Assembly: GCA_023334545.1 (NCBI GenBank)
Contig: JAADVB010000029.1
Coordinates: 46,818-110,817, forward strand
Direction: 5' to 3'
DNA length: 64,000 nt
From: Salisapilia sapeloensis
Lineage: Eukaryota; Oomycota; Peronosporomycetes; Peronosporales; Salisapiliaceae
Below the pieces are notes generated by a model. The model ran no database searches and had not been told where the DNA came from. It saw only the letters and a list, made by a program, of their open reading frames with translations. Below, piece after piece: positions 20,567 through 29,421 of this stretch. Made by a program: the position numbers and the translations under genes. Numbering within the stretch: the first letter of the stretch is position 1; each line of letters begins with the position of its first letter.

Positions 20567-22264
20567 CTACACCATTTCCTGCTTCTCGCTATGACTAGTC
20601 GTACTCACAAGTCCATGTCGATTCGTACGCATGGGATTCGACATACCACGTTGTGTATGGCCACCAAATAATGGTTGCATGTGCTTCCGATCAAACTCTT
20701 CCCAACTACGTAATAATGATGCCATGCACCCATGCTCCGCGATATCCATCCACCGATCACGATAGCCAGGATGGCGCAATCGCTGCTCCCAATTGCTGTC
20801 GTATTCATCATCACTCGAGCTTTCTTTCGCAGATTCTTTATCTTCATTTCCATTTTCCTCTTCCGTCGTCTCCTTCTGATTCTGAACGCCTTCCATCGTC
20901 ACGTCCTTCTGACTTCTCGTTGACGTTTCGGAAGCCGTGTCCACTTCCTCCTCATCTTTCTTATGCGCTAGTCCGAGCATGGATAAAAATGGACCTGTGA
21001 GTCCACCAACGACAAGTGTCGTGAACATAACGACAGCTAGTGTCGTGGATTCAATGAGCTTTCGATGGGAATTGCCGTGAGAATCCTTATACGACCAGCT
21101 CTTCGCGAGAGCAAATGCCATGGATCCACGCAGACCAGACACCCAAATGACTGTCATGTGAGACAATGGGATCTTCTGATCTTGGGATCGAGAGCAGTTT
21201 GAAAGACCCAGCAAAGGAAAGATATTCACGAAACGAGCGACAAAGCAAGCTCCTAGTGCTACGAAAATCAACGACCAACTGATCTGGTCGCCATGCAGAG
21301 CCGTGCCAGCGTTCTCTTCATTATGTCCGACAAAGAGCATGACGATAGACACGCCCATAAAGACATAGACTATCGTCTCAGAGATGAAGGCAGCAGTGCG
21401 TAACAAGTGACGGAACGTATGCTGAGCTTCCTTAGACACTGTATGATACTGATAGTGGGCTGTCATCGTACCAGAGATAAAGATCGCAACGATACCACTG
21501 AGGTCCAATGCGACCGTTACAAAGTACGTGAGTAGGCTGACGATGAGGACGAGAGAAATCTCGTACGTGGGGTAGTGACGTAGCATCGACAGGAACTCGC
21601 GTTTAAGAAGGTATCCGCCCGCTAGCGTGATGAGGCCGCCTGCAAGCAAGGAGCAAAAGAACATGCCACCAGTGTTTGCTGCTACGAGCAAAACTTGCTT
21701 TCCTGTGAACTCATGATCAGGTTGCCATTTTTGGAGCGTCTGATACAGAGCAATGGCGACGGCATCGTTCAAGACGCTTTCGCCGAAGACTAGATTAAAG
21801 AGAAGAGGAGGAGCGTTCAGCTTGCTAAAGACCCCAAGCGTAGCGACAGGGTCCACAGCACTTAGTAAGGCGCCAAAGAGGCACATTTCGACCCATGAAA
21901 GGTTGGGTACGAGGCCGTAGTAACCTGCAGCGTAGAGCATACCGCCAGTGGCACAGGCCGATACGATTGTTCCGATAATAGATGTAGACAGGATGGCTGG
22001 AAAGTTGCGGAAGAAAGCACGTCTTTTCACGGCAAACCCACTCTCGTAGATGATCGGCGGTAGTAAAACGTCAAAGAAGAGGTCGTTATCGAGGTTCAAG
22101 TGTGCGTCGAGACTGTTCGTCGCCCATAGCACGAGTCCGACTAATAATCCGATGATTAACGCAAATCCGCTATGAGACAAGAGCATCACCGAGTACTGGT
22201 CCAATGCAAAGGACACGAGTACCAGGAGAAGCAAGAGCACGAGGATCAATATCGTCTCCTCCAT
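20567..22264 (-). CDS. Sodium/proton exchanger, CPA1 (NHE) family
   Basis: Single exon, 565 residues. About 12 membrane helices fill residues 1-430. Family hallmarks are present: LLPPIIYESGF, then GALLSAVDPVATLGVF, then FGESVLNDAVAIALY, where the Asp of the ND pair is the ion-binding residue, and GLRGSMAFALA near the end of the membrane part. The C-terminal 130 residues are cytosolic, hydrophilic and acidic (EEEVDTASETSTRSQ, EEENGNEDKESAKES). These exchangers swap Na+ or K+ for protons across the plasma membrane or endomembranes. The relatively short tail suggests an organellar NHE6/NHE8-like member, but the compartment cannot be read from sequence. Confidence 0.93.
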   Translation of the reverse strand: MEETILILVLLLLLVLVSFALDQYSVMLLSHSGFALIIGLLVGLVLWATNSLDAHLNLDNDLFFDVLLPPIIYESGFAVKRRAFFRNFPAILSTSIIGTIVSACATGGMLYAAGYYGLVPNLSWVEMCLFGALLSAVDPVATLGVFSKLNAPPLLFNLVFGESVLNDAVAIALYQTLQKWQPDHEFTGKQVLLVAANTGGMFFCSLLAGGLITLAGGYLLKREFLSMLRHYPTYEISLVLIVSLLTYFVTVALDLSGIVAIFISGTMTAHYQYHTVSKEAQHTFRHLLRTAAFISETIVYVFMGVSIVMLFVGHNEENAGTALHGDQISWSLIFVALGACFVARFVNIFPLLGLSNCSRSQDQKIPLSHMTVIWVSGLRGSMAFALAKSWSYKDSHGNSHRKLIESTTLAVVMFTTLVVGGLTGPFLSMLGLAHKKDEEEVDTASETSTRSQKDVTMEGVQNQKETTEEENGNEDKESAKESSSDDEYDSNWEQRLRHPGYRDRWMDIAEHGCMASLLRSWEEFDRKHMQPLFGGHTQRGMSNPMRTNRHGLVSTTSHSEKQEMV

Positions 22265-22420
22265 CTCGTGCTGCTAATTGAATACTGCACGTCTTGCCAC
22301 CTCAGCAAATTCACAAATGGCCAATGAAAAATCCAGTTGGAAGCATAGTTGCAATATCATTGGGTGATAAACTAATGGGTTCGCAAAGATCTTGAAAGGA
22401 TGTTTATGCTTATCCTCGAT

Positions 22421-23630
22421 CTACTTGGTAGGCTTCGGCAGACGAGCTTTACGGAAGCGCACAAACGGGAAGATAGCTGCAGCTACGCTGAATGCATACC
22501 TAGTCATCCAAAGGTTAGATGGAGTGTATAGAGATTGTGGATAAGATAAGTACCAGGTGATGGCATAGCCGGCATGCTTTTCCGGTGTCATGTAAAACTC
22601 CATGTAGTTGTGAATCTTCTTACGTAAAGGCGACGCGAGCGTCACATTCTGCTTTTCATCCTCATCCGCTATAGAATTGTTAATCTATACCTACTTGAAG
22701 ATATAGAATAAGAGGTATATACCGAGTGAATCGAGGATGACTGGAAGTTCAGGCATGTCGACGCCCATGGCCTTTGCCATCTCTTCGTCGTTCAGGTAGT
22801 AAAAGTGGCGGCGATCCACTTCATTATCCGGTGTAAATTGGCCTCTCTACAAACCTTGACCAATTAAGTCCCGATCTATCTTTTTAGAATTCAAAACTAC
22901 CTCCTCTCCATGACGCAAGACACCTGTGATGGACACTGGACCAGGCATTTCCTTCTTGTCCATAGCCATGTGCTCATCCAATCGTTCTTTAGGTAGCCAT
23001 CCTCGGTTCACAATGATCGGCGTACCACCGAAGCGTTCCAATAACGTGTAGACGTATCCACCAGAGCGTACGCTGGCAACGCTATCCGTCTCCTCTGCTG
23101 GAGCCGATCGAGGATACAAGTAATACGTGCTGCCAGGCTTGAATTCACCATCGACTTTCAGTCGACGGAACTCGATATCATCACTAGCATCCACGTTAGA
23201 CACCTGTATTACACCAGCTATGAGTTTTGCACTGTACATGTTGCTACTGGCAGTTGCATTCGATGCCAACGGGACTGCAGCCTCCTTGAGCTGCTTGGAA
23301 CGTTCGGCAATCAAATCCACTTTCCAAAAGTAGCGTTGCGTCTGCATAAATTGTTACCAATCTGAAACTACAGCTTTAAGTACCAGTACGCACCTGCCAT
23401 GTGCCTAAATAAGCCGTTCCAGCCGCCTAATGCATGAGTTAATACCGACATTCTCGGCCATTGCGACGTCTACGTACCACAAGGGAGAAGAAGGCGATAC
23501 CGGCATATCGCGTTGCATTACTTTCACTCTGCACATTCTCCGATGCATTTGCAGTTGAAGCAGAGCGCGTAGGAACGAGTGATGACACACGTCCTCGGAG
23601 TCGTGATGGCCGTAGCAATCGCTGCATCAT
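22421..23630 (-). CDS. SURF1: SURF1, cytochrome c oxidase assembly factor
   Basis: Six exons (minus strand): 23630-23478, 23426-23394, 23341-22901, 22846-22723, 22668-22554, 22499-22421; 314 residues. The N terminus is a basic, Ser/Arg-rich mitochondrial presequence (MMQRLLRPSRLRGRVSSLVP). A membrane helix follows, then the SURF1 signature across the 33-nt exon 2 (LGTWQ, then QRYFWKVDLI). Further conserved pieces are IIVNRGWLPKE, SITGVLRHGEE joined to RGQFTPDN, and the second membrane helix starting ITWYAFSVAA. The TAG at about 22850 is removed with the third intron. SURF1 helps insert haem a into subunit I of complex IV in the inner membrane. It shares a 110-bp divergent promoter region with the BCDIN3D-like gene. 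Confidence 0.9.
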
Positions 23631-23740: not shown

Positions 23741-24895
23741 ATGCCGACTGCGGATGGACATCTCTTGGGCAATTTCCATGCCTATTACAACTTTAATCCT
23801 GTTCAAGAGCGACTGAGATTCTTAAGATGCCCGAATGGACAAGCACTTGTGAAAGCGTTGAGACAAGATGAACAAAAGGAGGTGGATGGGCCACCGGAAC
23901 CAGTCGTCATCGTTGATATTGGGTGCAATGAAGGTATTTATGACCATATATATCATTTGGATCTGTTTAATGAACGATTTGTAGGTAAATTGACGATGGG
24001 GTTTTATAACGAGGTTGCTGGACGAAAGTCTGAGGAAGCAATGTCTTCGACAGACGTCGTGCACTTTGATCCAGAAGCGATTGGCAAGGTGAATAATCTT
24101 TGCCAGCAGACAAAAACCCAAGTAGATTATCGAATCAAAGAAGATAAAGACACTGCTCATCAGCATTGGTACCTCTGTGAACTTTTCTTTGATGGAGAGC
24201 ACGTTGGGAGTGGATCTGGCGTGTCAAAGAAAGTGGCCAAATCGAAGGCTGCAAGTATGGCTCTAGCCAGCAATCCCACCCAGTCTACCGCAAACACAGA
24301 CACAGATAATACAAAAGAACTCACGGATTTGTCTTCCTGTGATGGCAAACGGCGATCTATCTTCCTGTTAGGCGTAGATATTGACAATGAGTTGATTGAC
24401 AAGGCCAAGAAAGAGAAGAAAGCGGTAGATGAAGGAGACGTTATCGACTTTCAGTGCTTGGATCTATCCACGGTAACTGCATTTGACCAAGAACTCACTT
24501 CTTTTGCGCACGCAGCGCTTGGGACAAAGCGAGAGCGGCCATACACTCTAGTGACGTGCTTTAGTGTAACCATGTGGGTACATTTGAATCATGGAGATGA
24601 TGGTTTATGGCGCTTCTTAGACCGCATTAGCTCTATAACAGAACACTTGGTCTTGGAGCCACAACCGTGGAAGTGTTATCGTAACGCTGTGAACCGACTG
24701 AAGCGGCGAAAGCATCCCATCCCAGACTCATTCACCCAACTCTCTGTGCGTCAGGATGTGTTTGAACGCATCAATGCGTTTTTACTCGAAAGCGGCCGCT
24801 TTCGATGGAAAGCAAACTTTGGCACGACCAACTGGTCTCGTCCAATGTGGCTCTATAGTCGACGTAAAGTACCGCATGTTAAATACATGGAATAG
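23741..24895 (+). CDS. BCDIN3D: BCDIN3D-type RNA 5'-phosphate methyltransferase with an inserted dsRNA-binding domain
   Basis: Single exon, 384 residues; the first ATG is at 23741. Fold landmarks of the Bin3/BCDIN3D family are GNFHAYYNFNP (about 12-22), SAM-binding motif I VVIVDIGCNEGIY (about 55-68), motif II LLGVDIDNEL (about 209), CFSVTMWVHLNHGDDGLWRF (about 271-290) and EPQPWKCY (about 306). Known relatives methylate the 5'-monophosphate of tRNA-His and some small RNAs. Between motifs I and II lie about 140 residues where the human protein has about 30. The extra part contains a double-stranded RNA-binding domain (about 115-180) with HWYLCELFFDGEHVGSGSG and the helix-2 Lys cluster SKKVAKSKAASMAL. 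The insertion is in frame and not flanked by introns. A substrate with double-stranded character is a reasonable inference. Confidence 0.88.
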   Translation: MPTADGHLLGNFHAYYNFNPVQERLRFLRCPNGQALVKALRQDEQKEVDGPPEPVVIVDIGCNEGIYDHIYHLDLFNERFVGKLTMGFYNEVAGRKSEEAMSSTDVVHFDPEAIGKVNNLCQQTKTQVDYRIKEDKDTAHQHWYLCELFFDGEHVGSGSGVSKKVAKSKAASMALASNPTQSTANTDTDNTKELTDLSSCDGKRRSIFLLGVDIDNELIDKAKKEKKAVDEGDVIDFQCLDLSTVTAFDQELTSFAHAALGTKRERPYTLVTCFSVTMWVHLNHGDDGLWRFLDRISSITEHLVLEPQPWKCYRNAVNRLKRRKHPIPDSFTQLSVRQDVFERINAFLLESGRFRWKANFGTTNWSRPMWLYSRRKVPHVKYME

Positions 24896-27597: not shown

Positions 27598-29243
27598 CTA
27601 CTTCTTCCCCTTCCCTTTGTGCTTCGAAGTCTTTGAACTAGCCGATGGCTTGGTCTCGATTTCAATCGTCCCGCCTTGAATATCCTGCTTATGCGCACTC
27701 TGCTCCACTTTGCTCTGCGTATCGAGATAAAACATCAAGTCTCGCACCTATCAACCTTGACGTCAGTACAGTAGACACTTGTAACTGTACTGAATAACGT
27801 ACTTGGCTCTCTAAATCCGCAATCCGATGCGTACTCTCTCGTTCCGACTTTGCCTGATTGTCTTTCAAAAGCTGTATCTGTTCCTCCCACTGCTTCTTAT
27901 TCTCCAAAAGCTGCATATTCAGCTCTCTACATACATGATAAGTCCGACAACTTTATACATTGAAGAGGAGGAGACTACCTGACAAAAGTCAGCTCCTTCT
28001 CCAGCTTTGTCGACTTGGCTACTAGTGCTTCATTCGCTTTCTTCAGCTGCTTCTTCTCATGCTCCAATGCACTGACTGCTCGTCGAGAACCTGCTGCTGC
28101 TGCCTCCTGTAGCTTCTGCTCGTAGTATATGCGCTGCTCTTCCAACTGACTCGTTAACAAGTGATTGTACTCTACAGCTAGCTTTTCTAGTTTCTGATGC
28201 TCCTCTTCCTCTAGCTCTGCAGTCGTTGGAGGAGGCAGCTGAGACCTTTCGCCACTATGATTATTCGGACTTGGAAACTCGACGAACTTGCCGTCTTGCT
28301 TATTCAAAATCAGTCGATGGACGTATCCGTCTCCAGCGTAGTCCCACACACGCTGTGTTTCTAGCTCGAGAGAGTACGTGTGATACGTCTCGTGGTAATG
28401 CTGCTTGGCATGCTCTCCAGAGTACCGACCACAGCCGATGTGACCGCAGATGAGACAAATCCATAGATGCTCTACAGTGCCACAAACTTCACATGCAGAC
28501 TCATCGTCACCATGGCTGTAGCGACATACAGGACAACTAGAGCCTTCCCATCGGAAGAGGCAGTCGCAGTGGAATGTATGATTGCATAGTGTCGTTAAAA
28601 TGCCGGAAGCAGTGGCATCAAGACGATCGAGGCATACAGCACAAGTGGGAATTTCAGTCAAGCCTGAAGGAGGAGGTGGTAGCAACCGATCTACGGATTT
28701 AGTAGAGGTAATTAACGCTTCTTCCTTGACGTCGATCTTCTCTTCATCCGATGCGGCGATTACATTCGTGTCGGACGGCAGTGGGTCGAACTCAATCGAC
28801 CGTACAAAGACGATATTGCAACGATCTTGCTCAATTGAATTGAAGAACTGTCCGTCATGGTTCATAAAGAACTGATCGGCATGTTCTTGCTCTGTGAATT
28901 GGAGCAATGCCATGCAATTATCTCGTTCTGAATCCCGTAAGATGCGTACGAGTTCAATATGGGCACGATATCCAGCAATAAAATTCAGCAAGTCCACTGG
29001 CGACATATGCGTCGGCACGGATATAATACACACGAGCGTACTCCGTTCCGTTGGCAATTCCGGTACGATCGAAGTCGATGGTGTGACACGAGGAGGCGAG
29101 TGCTCCGTCACGCGAAAGAAACGCAATTTGCCAGTATTCACACGCACGCGTGGGTTACCAGTAAGAAAGGAAGCATCAATTTCCTGTTCATCATCTTCCT
29201 TCCTCTCTTCATTCGCCACATCCTGCACATGCACTTGGAACAT
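27598..29243 (-). CDS. BRAP: BRAP/IMP-type RING E3 ligase with UBP zinc finger
   Basis: Exons (minus strand) 29243-27979, 27926-27803 and 27747-27598; 512 residues. In order: a BRAP2-type RRM-like domain (about 66-150, STLVCIISVPTHMSPVDL), a RING-H2 (about 200-240, CAVCLDRL, CNHTFHCDCL, CPVC), a UBP-type zinc finger (about 248-310, CEVCGTVEHLWICLICG, CGRYSGEHAKQHY) and a long coiled coil ending in the conserved VRDLMFYLDTQ. Residues 15-30 hold SFLTGNPRV, also conserved in BRAP. The known animal protein is a Ras-responsive E3 ligase that restrains MAP-kinase signalling and retains cargo in the cytoplasm. The first in-frame ATG is 29243; the frame stays open upstream without another ATG, so an earlier exon is possible. 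Confidence 0.9.
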
Positions 29244-29421
29244 ACTCGCTTGTACCGTTGTACCACCTGCACGTACCAAAAGCTGTCCGATCAGAAACGA
29301 AAATCCAGTCGAAATTAATTATAGAGTGAGCTTGATTTTCTACTTTCTATTTCTTTATTTGTCACCCAAGAGGTACATCGTCATACCGCGTTTTATTCTT
29401 TCCAAGAGAAGGTCGACTGAT

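Follow-up and report, generated by a model that had tools for sequence, protein, structure and literature searches.

What is a double-stranded RNA-binding domain (dsRBD) doing in the middle of the catalytic core of a predicted RNA methyltransferase? The question is raised by an open reading frame (ORF) of 385 codons, stop included, that reads through positions 23741-24895 on the + strand of a 64,000-nucleotide (nt) stretch of the Salisapilia sapeloensis genome (contig JAADVB010000029.1), hereafter the window. Here we report that this gene encodes a BCDIN3D-like protein of the Bin3 family, and that the helix A-strand 2 loop of its S-adenosylmethionine (SAM)-binding fold contains a complete, nested type-A dsRBD.

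The combination of Bin3 and dsRBD is already in print, as one table row, and both domains are already annotated in databases. Table 2 of PMC4030286 (2014) places Phytophthora infestans PITG_03262 under RNA Silencing as a "dsRNA-binding protein w/ Bin3", whose labels (methyltransferase, dsRNA binding, Bicoid-interacting 3) match the three domains found here and their order, with no known difference on this comparison of labels; the passages of that paper on PITG_03262 make no mention of nesting, origin or substrate. In the literature searched, which covered few subscription papers, we found no study of the nesting, origin or function of the pair, and the terms bicoid, Bin3, dsrm, double-stranded RNA and methyltransferase are absent from the main text of a paper on oomycete domain fusions (PMC2705460).

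A dsRBD within the SAM-binding fold

Residue numbers given here are those of the read-through (unspliced) protein. The Pfam Bin3 profile matches residues 268-373 (5.9e-21, 75.5 bits against a cut-off of 27), and the best sequence match among solved structures is human BCDIN3D (PDB 6l8u, 4.8e-30), followed by the 7SK methylphosphate capping enzyme MePCE (~2e-8) and then by the dsRBDs of Staufen1 and PKR. The protein is therefore nearer by sequence to BCDIN3D than to MePCE. It has the DxGCN motif I and acidic motif II of a class I SAM fold, together with catalytic-core motifs common to human BCDIN3D (GNF..Y..F.P..R, MWIHLNHGD and EPQPWKCYR). Three further Pfam matches (UPF0020, DSRM_2 and Methyltransf_12) fell under their own cut-offs. 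HEN1 was also considered; the general Pfam scan, in which no search was aimed at a HEN1 model, showed Bin3 and dsrm above cut-off.

The match to Bin3 and that to the dsRBD are both far beyond chance. Pfam dsrm matches residues 114-176 (1.2e-10, 42.2 bits against a cut-off of 23) over profile positions 2-64 of 66, and the basic stretch SKKVAKSKAAS occupies residues 162-172. AlphaFold2 folds the domain confidently in the Phytophthora sojae ortholog (helix 96-107, strands 112-118, 128-134 and 137-144, helix 147-167), and its model of the window read-through protein, a diverged family member with 48% identity to the P. sojae protein, has the dsRBD elements in the same order. The domain shares with the type-A dsRBDs of PKR (1x48) and Staufen1 (6htu) the helix-strand-strand-strand-helix fold, the His loop and the KKxAK signature, but whereas those stand in a chain of domains, this one lies inside an enzyme core.

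The human BCDIN3D match falls in two pieces, query residues 9-67 (weak alone, 9.7 bits) and 205-375, with the dsRBD between them, which places the insert within the SAM-binding domain, and not as a fusion at an end. Motif II (VDID) is at residues 212-215, and Cys62 of motif I is separated from Asp213 of motif II by 151 residues in the read-through protein and by 134 after splicing (see below), as against 27 residues in human BCDIN3D (PDB chain numbering), an excess of about 107 after splicing that holds the dsRBD. A first-pass annotation, made from the sequence alone, had proposed a Bin3/BCDIN3D enzyme with about 110 more residues than the human protein between these motifs, the extra part being a full dsRBD with its Lys cluster nested in the Rossmann-type core; profiles, structure prediction and a clade-wide survey agree with it on each of these points, and the AlphaFold2 models have the dsRBD fold in the region where it was to be sought, residues 115-180.

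The same loop carries other insertions elsewhere. Four Bin3 proteins with motif spacings of 67-83 (P0066, P0069, P0072 and P0076) have, by eye, Ser/Ala-rich inserts there, so the helix A-strand 2 loop tolerates insertion. The idea that Bin3 proteins of longer motif I-II spacing or odd length hold a degenerate dsRBD was rejected: a dsrm scan of ten of them (P0066, P0067, P0069, P0072, P0074, P0076, P0096, P0099, P0124 and P0132), with matches admitted up to E = 1, came back empty. Two Bin3 proteins have an N-terminal domain resembling an RNA recognition motif (P0064 at 1.9e-6, over the cut-off; P0096 at 0.0035, under it), a different RNA-binding domain placed at an end of the same enzyme.

A probable in-frame intron in motif I

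Motif I is interrupted by a 51-nt stretch that is in all likelihood a spliceosomal intron, in frame and free of stop codons (Table 1), with borders GAAG/GTATTT...TTTGTAG/GTAAATTG. Its removal joins CNEG/KLT to give CNEGKLTMGF and a protein of 367 amino acids with motif I DIGCNEGKLT. The first-pass annotation had read the motif as VDIGCNEGIY, which would then be partly a translation of the intron, and which should read VDIGCNEGKLT.

The case for the intron is carried by alignment and not by its terminal dinucleotides, since chance GT...AG pairs are common in the ORF (33 of 45-75 nt and a length divisible by three are listed). Residues 65-81 are missing from all 17 other rows of the smaller alignment, which read CNEGDLT, CNEGKLT or CNEGNLT at the junction (CNEVDLT in P0028, CNQGDLT in P0062 and CNDGSLT in P0065), and the corresponding columns have a mean occupancy of 0.00 in the 54 other rows of the larger one. 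Scored with a profile built from 21 relatives, the spliced form gains 19 bits over the read-through form (424.9 against 405.5 bits), and in the AlphaFold2 model of the latter residues 67-77 have a confidence (pLDDT) below 50. Among 11 relatives' raw proteins, five raw ORFs (P0044, P0050, P0051, P0057 and P0058) have unrelated residues right before GDLT, as would be expected if an intron sits at the same junction there. This gene is a caution, in that a short in-frame intron came to be read as protein of a catalytic motif.

An intron was also considered as the source of the dsRBD itself and rejected: the 51-nt stretch is the only intron-like one, and the dsRBD belongs to exon 2 and is occupied in the 34 other dsRBD-bearing rows aligned.

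Table 1. Coordinates, in the window, of the methyltransferase gene and its neighbours
Feature	Position	Strand	Remarks
Exon 1	23741..23933	+	start codon, GNFHAYYNFNPVQERLRFL N-terminal motif, strand 1, motif I to first base of Gly codon (CNEG)
Inferred spliceosomal intron	23934..23984	+	51 nt, GT...AG, in frame, stop-free; 17 codons
Exon 2	23985..24895	+	helix A, dsRBD insert, remaining methyltransferase, stop codon
dsRBD	24065..24268	+	read-through residues 109-176; helix-strand-strand-strand-helix, between methyltransferase helix A and strand 2
KKVAK basic cluster	24227..24241	+	residues 163-167, start of second dsRBD helix
Variable linker, dsRBD to methyltransferase strand 2	24269..24349	+	mean pairwise identity 0.16, 35 rows
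Methyltransferase second part	24353..24865	+	VDID motif II, MWVHLNHGD, EPQPWKCYR; Bin3 profile 24542-24859
SURF1-family gene	22847-23353	-	
SURF1 inferred intron	22847-22900	-	54 nt
Na+/H+ exchanger family protein	20567-22273	-	
BRAP2 / RING / zf-UBP protein	27975-29318	-	

Conservation and origin of the insert

The dsRBD domain PF00035 is carried by 60 of the 120 matches listed (309 in all), namely P0002-P0061 except P0026, plus P0065. The named carriers are oomycetes (Phytophthora, Peronospora, Hyaloperonospora, Bremia, Plasmopara, Peronosclerospora, Nothophytophthora, Pythium, Globisporangium, Albugo, Aphanomyces, Saprolegnia, Achlya and Thraustotheca), and the survey of relatives that the first reading had called for thus found the insert common to Phytophthora, downy mildews, Pythium, Albugo, Saprolegnia, Achlya and Aphanomyces. 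In P0026, a P. cactorum gene model, the dsrm match is partial and under the cut-off; P0020 and P0025, from the same species, carry the domain. A search with a profile of 11 diverse members, not exhaustive in that only 7994 candidates were scored, gave PF00035 in 54 of the 120 matches listed (325 in all; the known members P0034, P0047 and P0061 are outside those listed), and the listed rows below the carriers were animals and other sequences without PF00035.

Conservation was counted over 35 near-full-length dsRBD rows, the window protein and 34 of the 60, many of them close relatives, so that identity means lean on Phytophthora and its kin. The dsRBD has a mean pairwise identity of 0.50; the figure is 0.56, 0.61, 0.48 and 0.63 in four methyltransferase segments, 0.28 in the methyltransferase loop at residues 246-267, and 0.21 and 0.16 in the two linkers. 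With a value near those of the core and far above those of the linkers, the dsRBD is held like the catalytic core. Domains of this kind contact RNA at three canonical regions, and residues that would make these contacts are kept in each: in the Lys cluster K163 (34/35), K164 (32/35) and K or R at 167 (35/35), in the loop between strands 1 and 2 H140 (33/35), and in helix 1 N118 and Q122 (34/35 each).

We also asked how often the insert arose, using two trees. In the second, built from methyltransferase columns only (insert columns removed) and realigned with 13 rows added and P0118 left out, all 35 dsRBD rows fall on one side and the 32 rows without it on the other (support 96/86). The dsRBD was gained once, in the common ancestor of the clade, on this better tree, from which one long-branch row was omitted. 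P0118, a very long branch without a dsRBD, fell among outlying rows in the first tree (55 rows, P0118 kept), which weighs against a single insertion: it needed two changes, and one change sufficed in 7% of 200 bootstrap trees. The omission of P0118 favours the single-origin reading; two gains, considered as an alternative, are not needed on the second tree, although its support depends on that omission.

The oomycete rows form a well-supported group of 32 (99/93) that does not include three of the carriers (P0055, P0061 and P0065), so the insert may be older than the oomycetes proper. The window protein, itself on a long branch, grouped with Pythium-like rows in the first tree and with Albugo in the second. 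The peronosporalean and saprolegnialean lines, both of which carry the insert, parted in the early Mesozoic (PMC4030286), which points to a long-kept function and not to an oddity of one species.

What the enzyme may act on

The likeliest role, judged from sequence, is methylation of the 5'-monophosphate of an RNA that starts in a helix, with transfer RNA (tRNA)-His as first candidate and silencing RNAs second. The core would be a SAM-dependent methyltransferase of RNA 5'-monophosphates; the dsRBD would hold the substrate helix, raising affinity and favouring helices of roughly 12 base pairs (bp) or longer, while the core would methylate the phosphate at that helix end. On tRNA-His it may add grip on the stacked acceptor and T stems, or it may widen the range to longer duplexes. 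The whole of this reading, a BCDIN3D ortholog whose once-inserted dsRBD grips the substrate helix while the core methylates its 5' phosphate, with tRNA-His the likeliest substrate, we hold to be about evenly balanced.

The acceptor stem of tRNA-His (7-8 bp), stacked on a T stem of 5 bp, comes to about the length that one dsRBD covers. The core is that of human BCDIN3D and the genome has a tRNA-His that can have the needed features, which together make tRNA-His the first candidate. The human enzyme monomethylates the 5'-monophosphate of tRNA-His, its best-established substrate, reading G-1, the G-1:A73 mispair and an 8-nt acceptor helix; a tRNA-His minihelix suffices, and pre-miR-145 is a substrate worse by 2-3 orders of magnitude (PMC6088191).

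We searched the assembly (19.5 Mb in 452 contigs, possibly incomplete) for these features. Five tRNA-His pattern matches were found, all with A73, of which two (L006 and L009) are truncated where their contigs end; G directly precedes position 1 in all three with readable 5' ends (L007, L008 and L010). Exon-by-exon searches gave no match for Thg1 or Thg1C, which does not establish their absence. In L007, L008 and L010 tRNA-His stands in tandem with tRNA-Ala, of which L007 and L008 hold the 3' end only and L010 (contig C447, 1396-1542) the whole. ARAGORN starts the L010 tRNA-Ala one base early, with the anticodon at 35 instead of 34; by the usual U8-A9 register we take it to be 1397-1469, so that a single G separates the discriminator A of tRNA-Ala from G1 of tRNA-His. 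If tRNA-Ala is cleaved 3' of its A73, tRNA-His would come away with its G-1 already in place and with a 5' phosphate.

Several points weigh against this picture. Both the activity and the RNA binding of the oomycete enzyme are predicted, and since the human enzyme acts on tRNA-His with no dsRBD of its own, this substrate by itself does not account for the gain. In class I folds the helix A-strand 2 loop faces away from the SAM pocket, which makes simultaneous contact of RNA with dsRBD and active site an assumption. The window protein departs from its relatives at position 119, with Asn in place of the Glu or Asp found in 32 of the 35 rows. Because the copies of tRNA-His are nearly identical repeats, they amount to about one observation, and ARAGORN assigns the G before tRNA-His in L010 to tRNA-Ala as its last base (1396-1470).

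A possible, though clearly less likely, reading, towards which the first-pass annotation had pointed, is that the enzyme caps silencing RNAs at their 5'-monophosphate, be they Dicer products, hairpin precursors or other dsRNA, with the dsRBD picking duplexes and 5' methylation lowering Dicer processing or Argonaute loading. Such a role would suit a dsRBD with all three RNA-contact regions kept, and the assembly has one Piwi-domain match, while its five matches to the RNase III domain are spread over three contigs, two of them with the domains paired in a single frame. These matches are, however, on contigs other than that of the window gene, and no RNA-dependent RNA polymerase was found in a search of the assembly run without a positive control. 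A dsrm search of the assembly returned three matches, with the window gene best and another adjoining an RNase III match on contig C183. From the literature, the P. infestans gene is placed under RNA silencing (PMC4030286) and dimethylation of pre-miR-145 by human BCDIN3D has been reported and disputed, set against the far lower pre-microRNA activity of the human enzyme noted above (PMC6088191); the proposal itself comes from sequence.

A bolder form of this idea, somewhat less probable again, would have oomycetes turning a tRNA-His methyltransferase into a dsRNA-reading capping enzyme for small interfering RNA duplexes, hairpin precursors and foreign dsRNA. If true, such an enzyme would set which small RNAs Dicer and Argonaute use; to our knowledge no such 5'-end modification step is part of RNA silencing in animals, plants or fungi.

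A role for the dsRBD in protein contacts, dimerisation or location, in place of RNA binding, is improbable. Some dsRBDs do bind proteins instead of RNA, and this one is flanked by poorly conserved linkers, but in protein-binding dsRBDs the lysines and the loop that touch RNA are usually lost, and here K163, K164, residue 167 (K or R) and H140 are conserved in 32-35 of the 35 rows. Least credible by far is an artefact of intron read-through or a wrong gene model, as the probable intron and the partial match of P0026 might suggest: many of the 60 carriers are annotated gene models, P0055 is labelled as an MMETSP transcript ORF, other P. cactorum models carry the dsRBD, the domain folds confidently, and the insert is filled and 0.50 identical in the 34 rows aligned (rows chosen for carrying it).

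Returning to the tRNA-His reading and its chief rival, if the dsRBD does steer the enzyme, oomycetes would provide a natural experiment on how nesting an RNA-binding domain in a 5'-phosphate methyltransferase alters what it acts on, and this would bear on the disputed question of whether tRNA-His or small-RNA precursors are the substrate of BCDIN3D.

The assembly contains one more Bin3 locus (L001, contig C440, ~534-1464), where the Bin3 match is stronger (122.8 bits) than in the window gene (78.5 bits). Unlike the window gene it has a short motif I-II spacing (about 45 residues or fewer, by eye, over two overlapping frames) and no dsrm match on its contig; it is apparently split by introns. 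Two Bin3 genes were thus found, with the insert only in the BCDIN3D-like one, as in the P. infestans pair PITG_14915 and PITG_03262 (PMC4030286).

Three neighbouring genes, all on the - strand, encode a SURF1-family protein, a Na+/H+ exchanger family protein and a BRAP2 / RING / zf-UBP protein (Table 1). The SURF1 gene appears to stand head to head with the methyltransferase gene, and its own putative intron shares the TTTGTAG end of the methyltransferase-gene intron.
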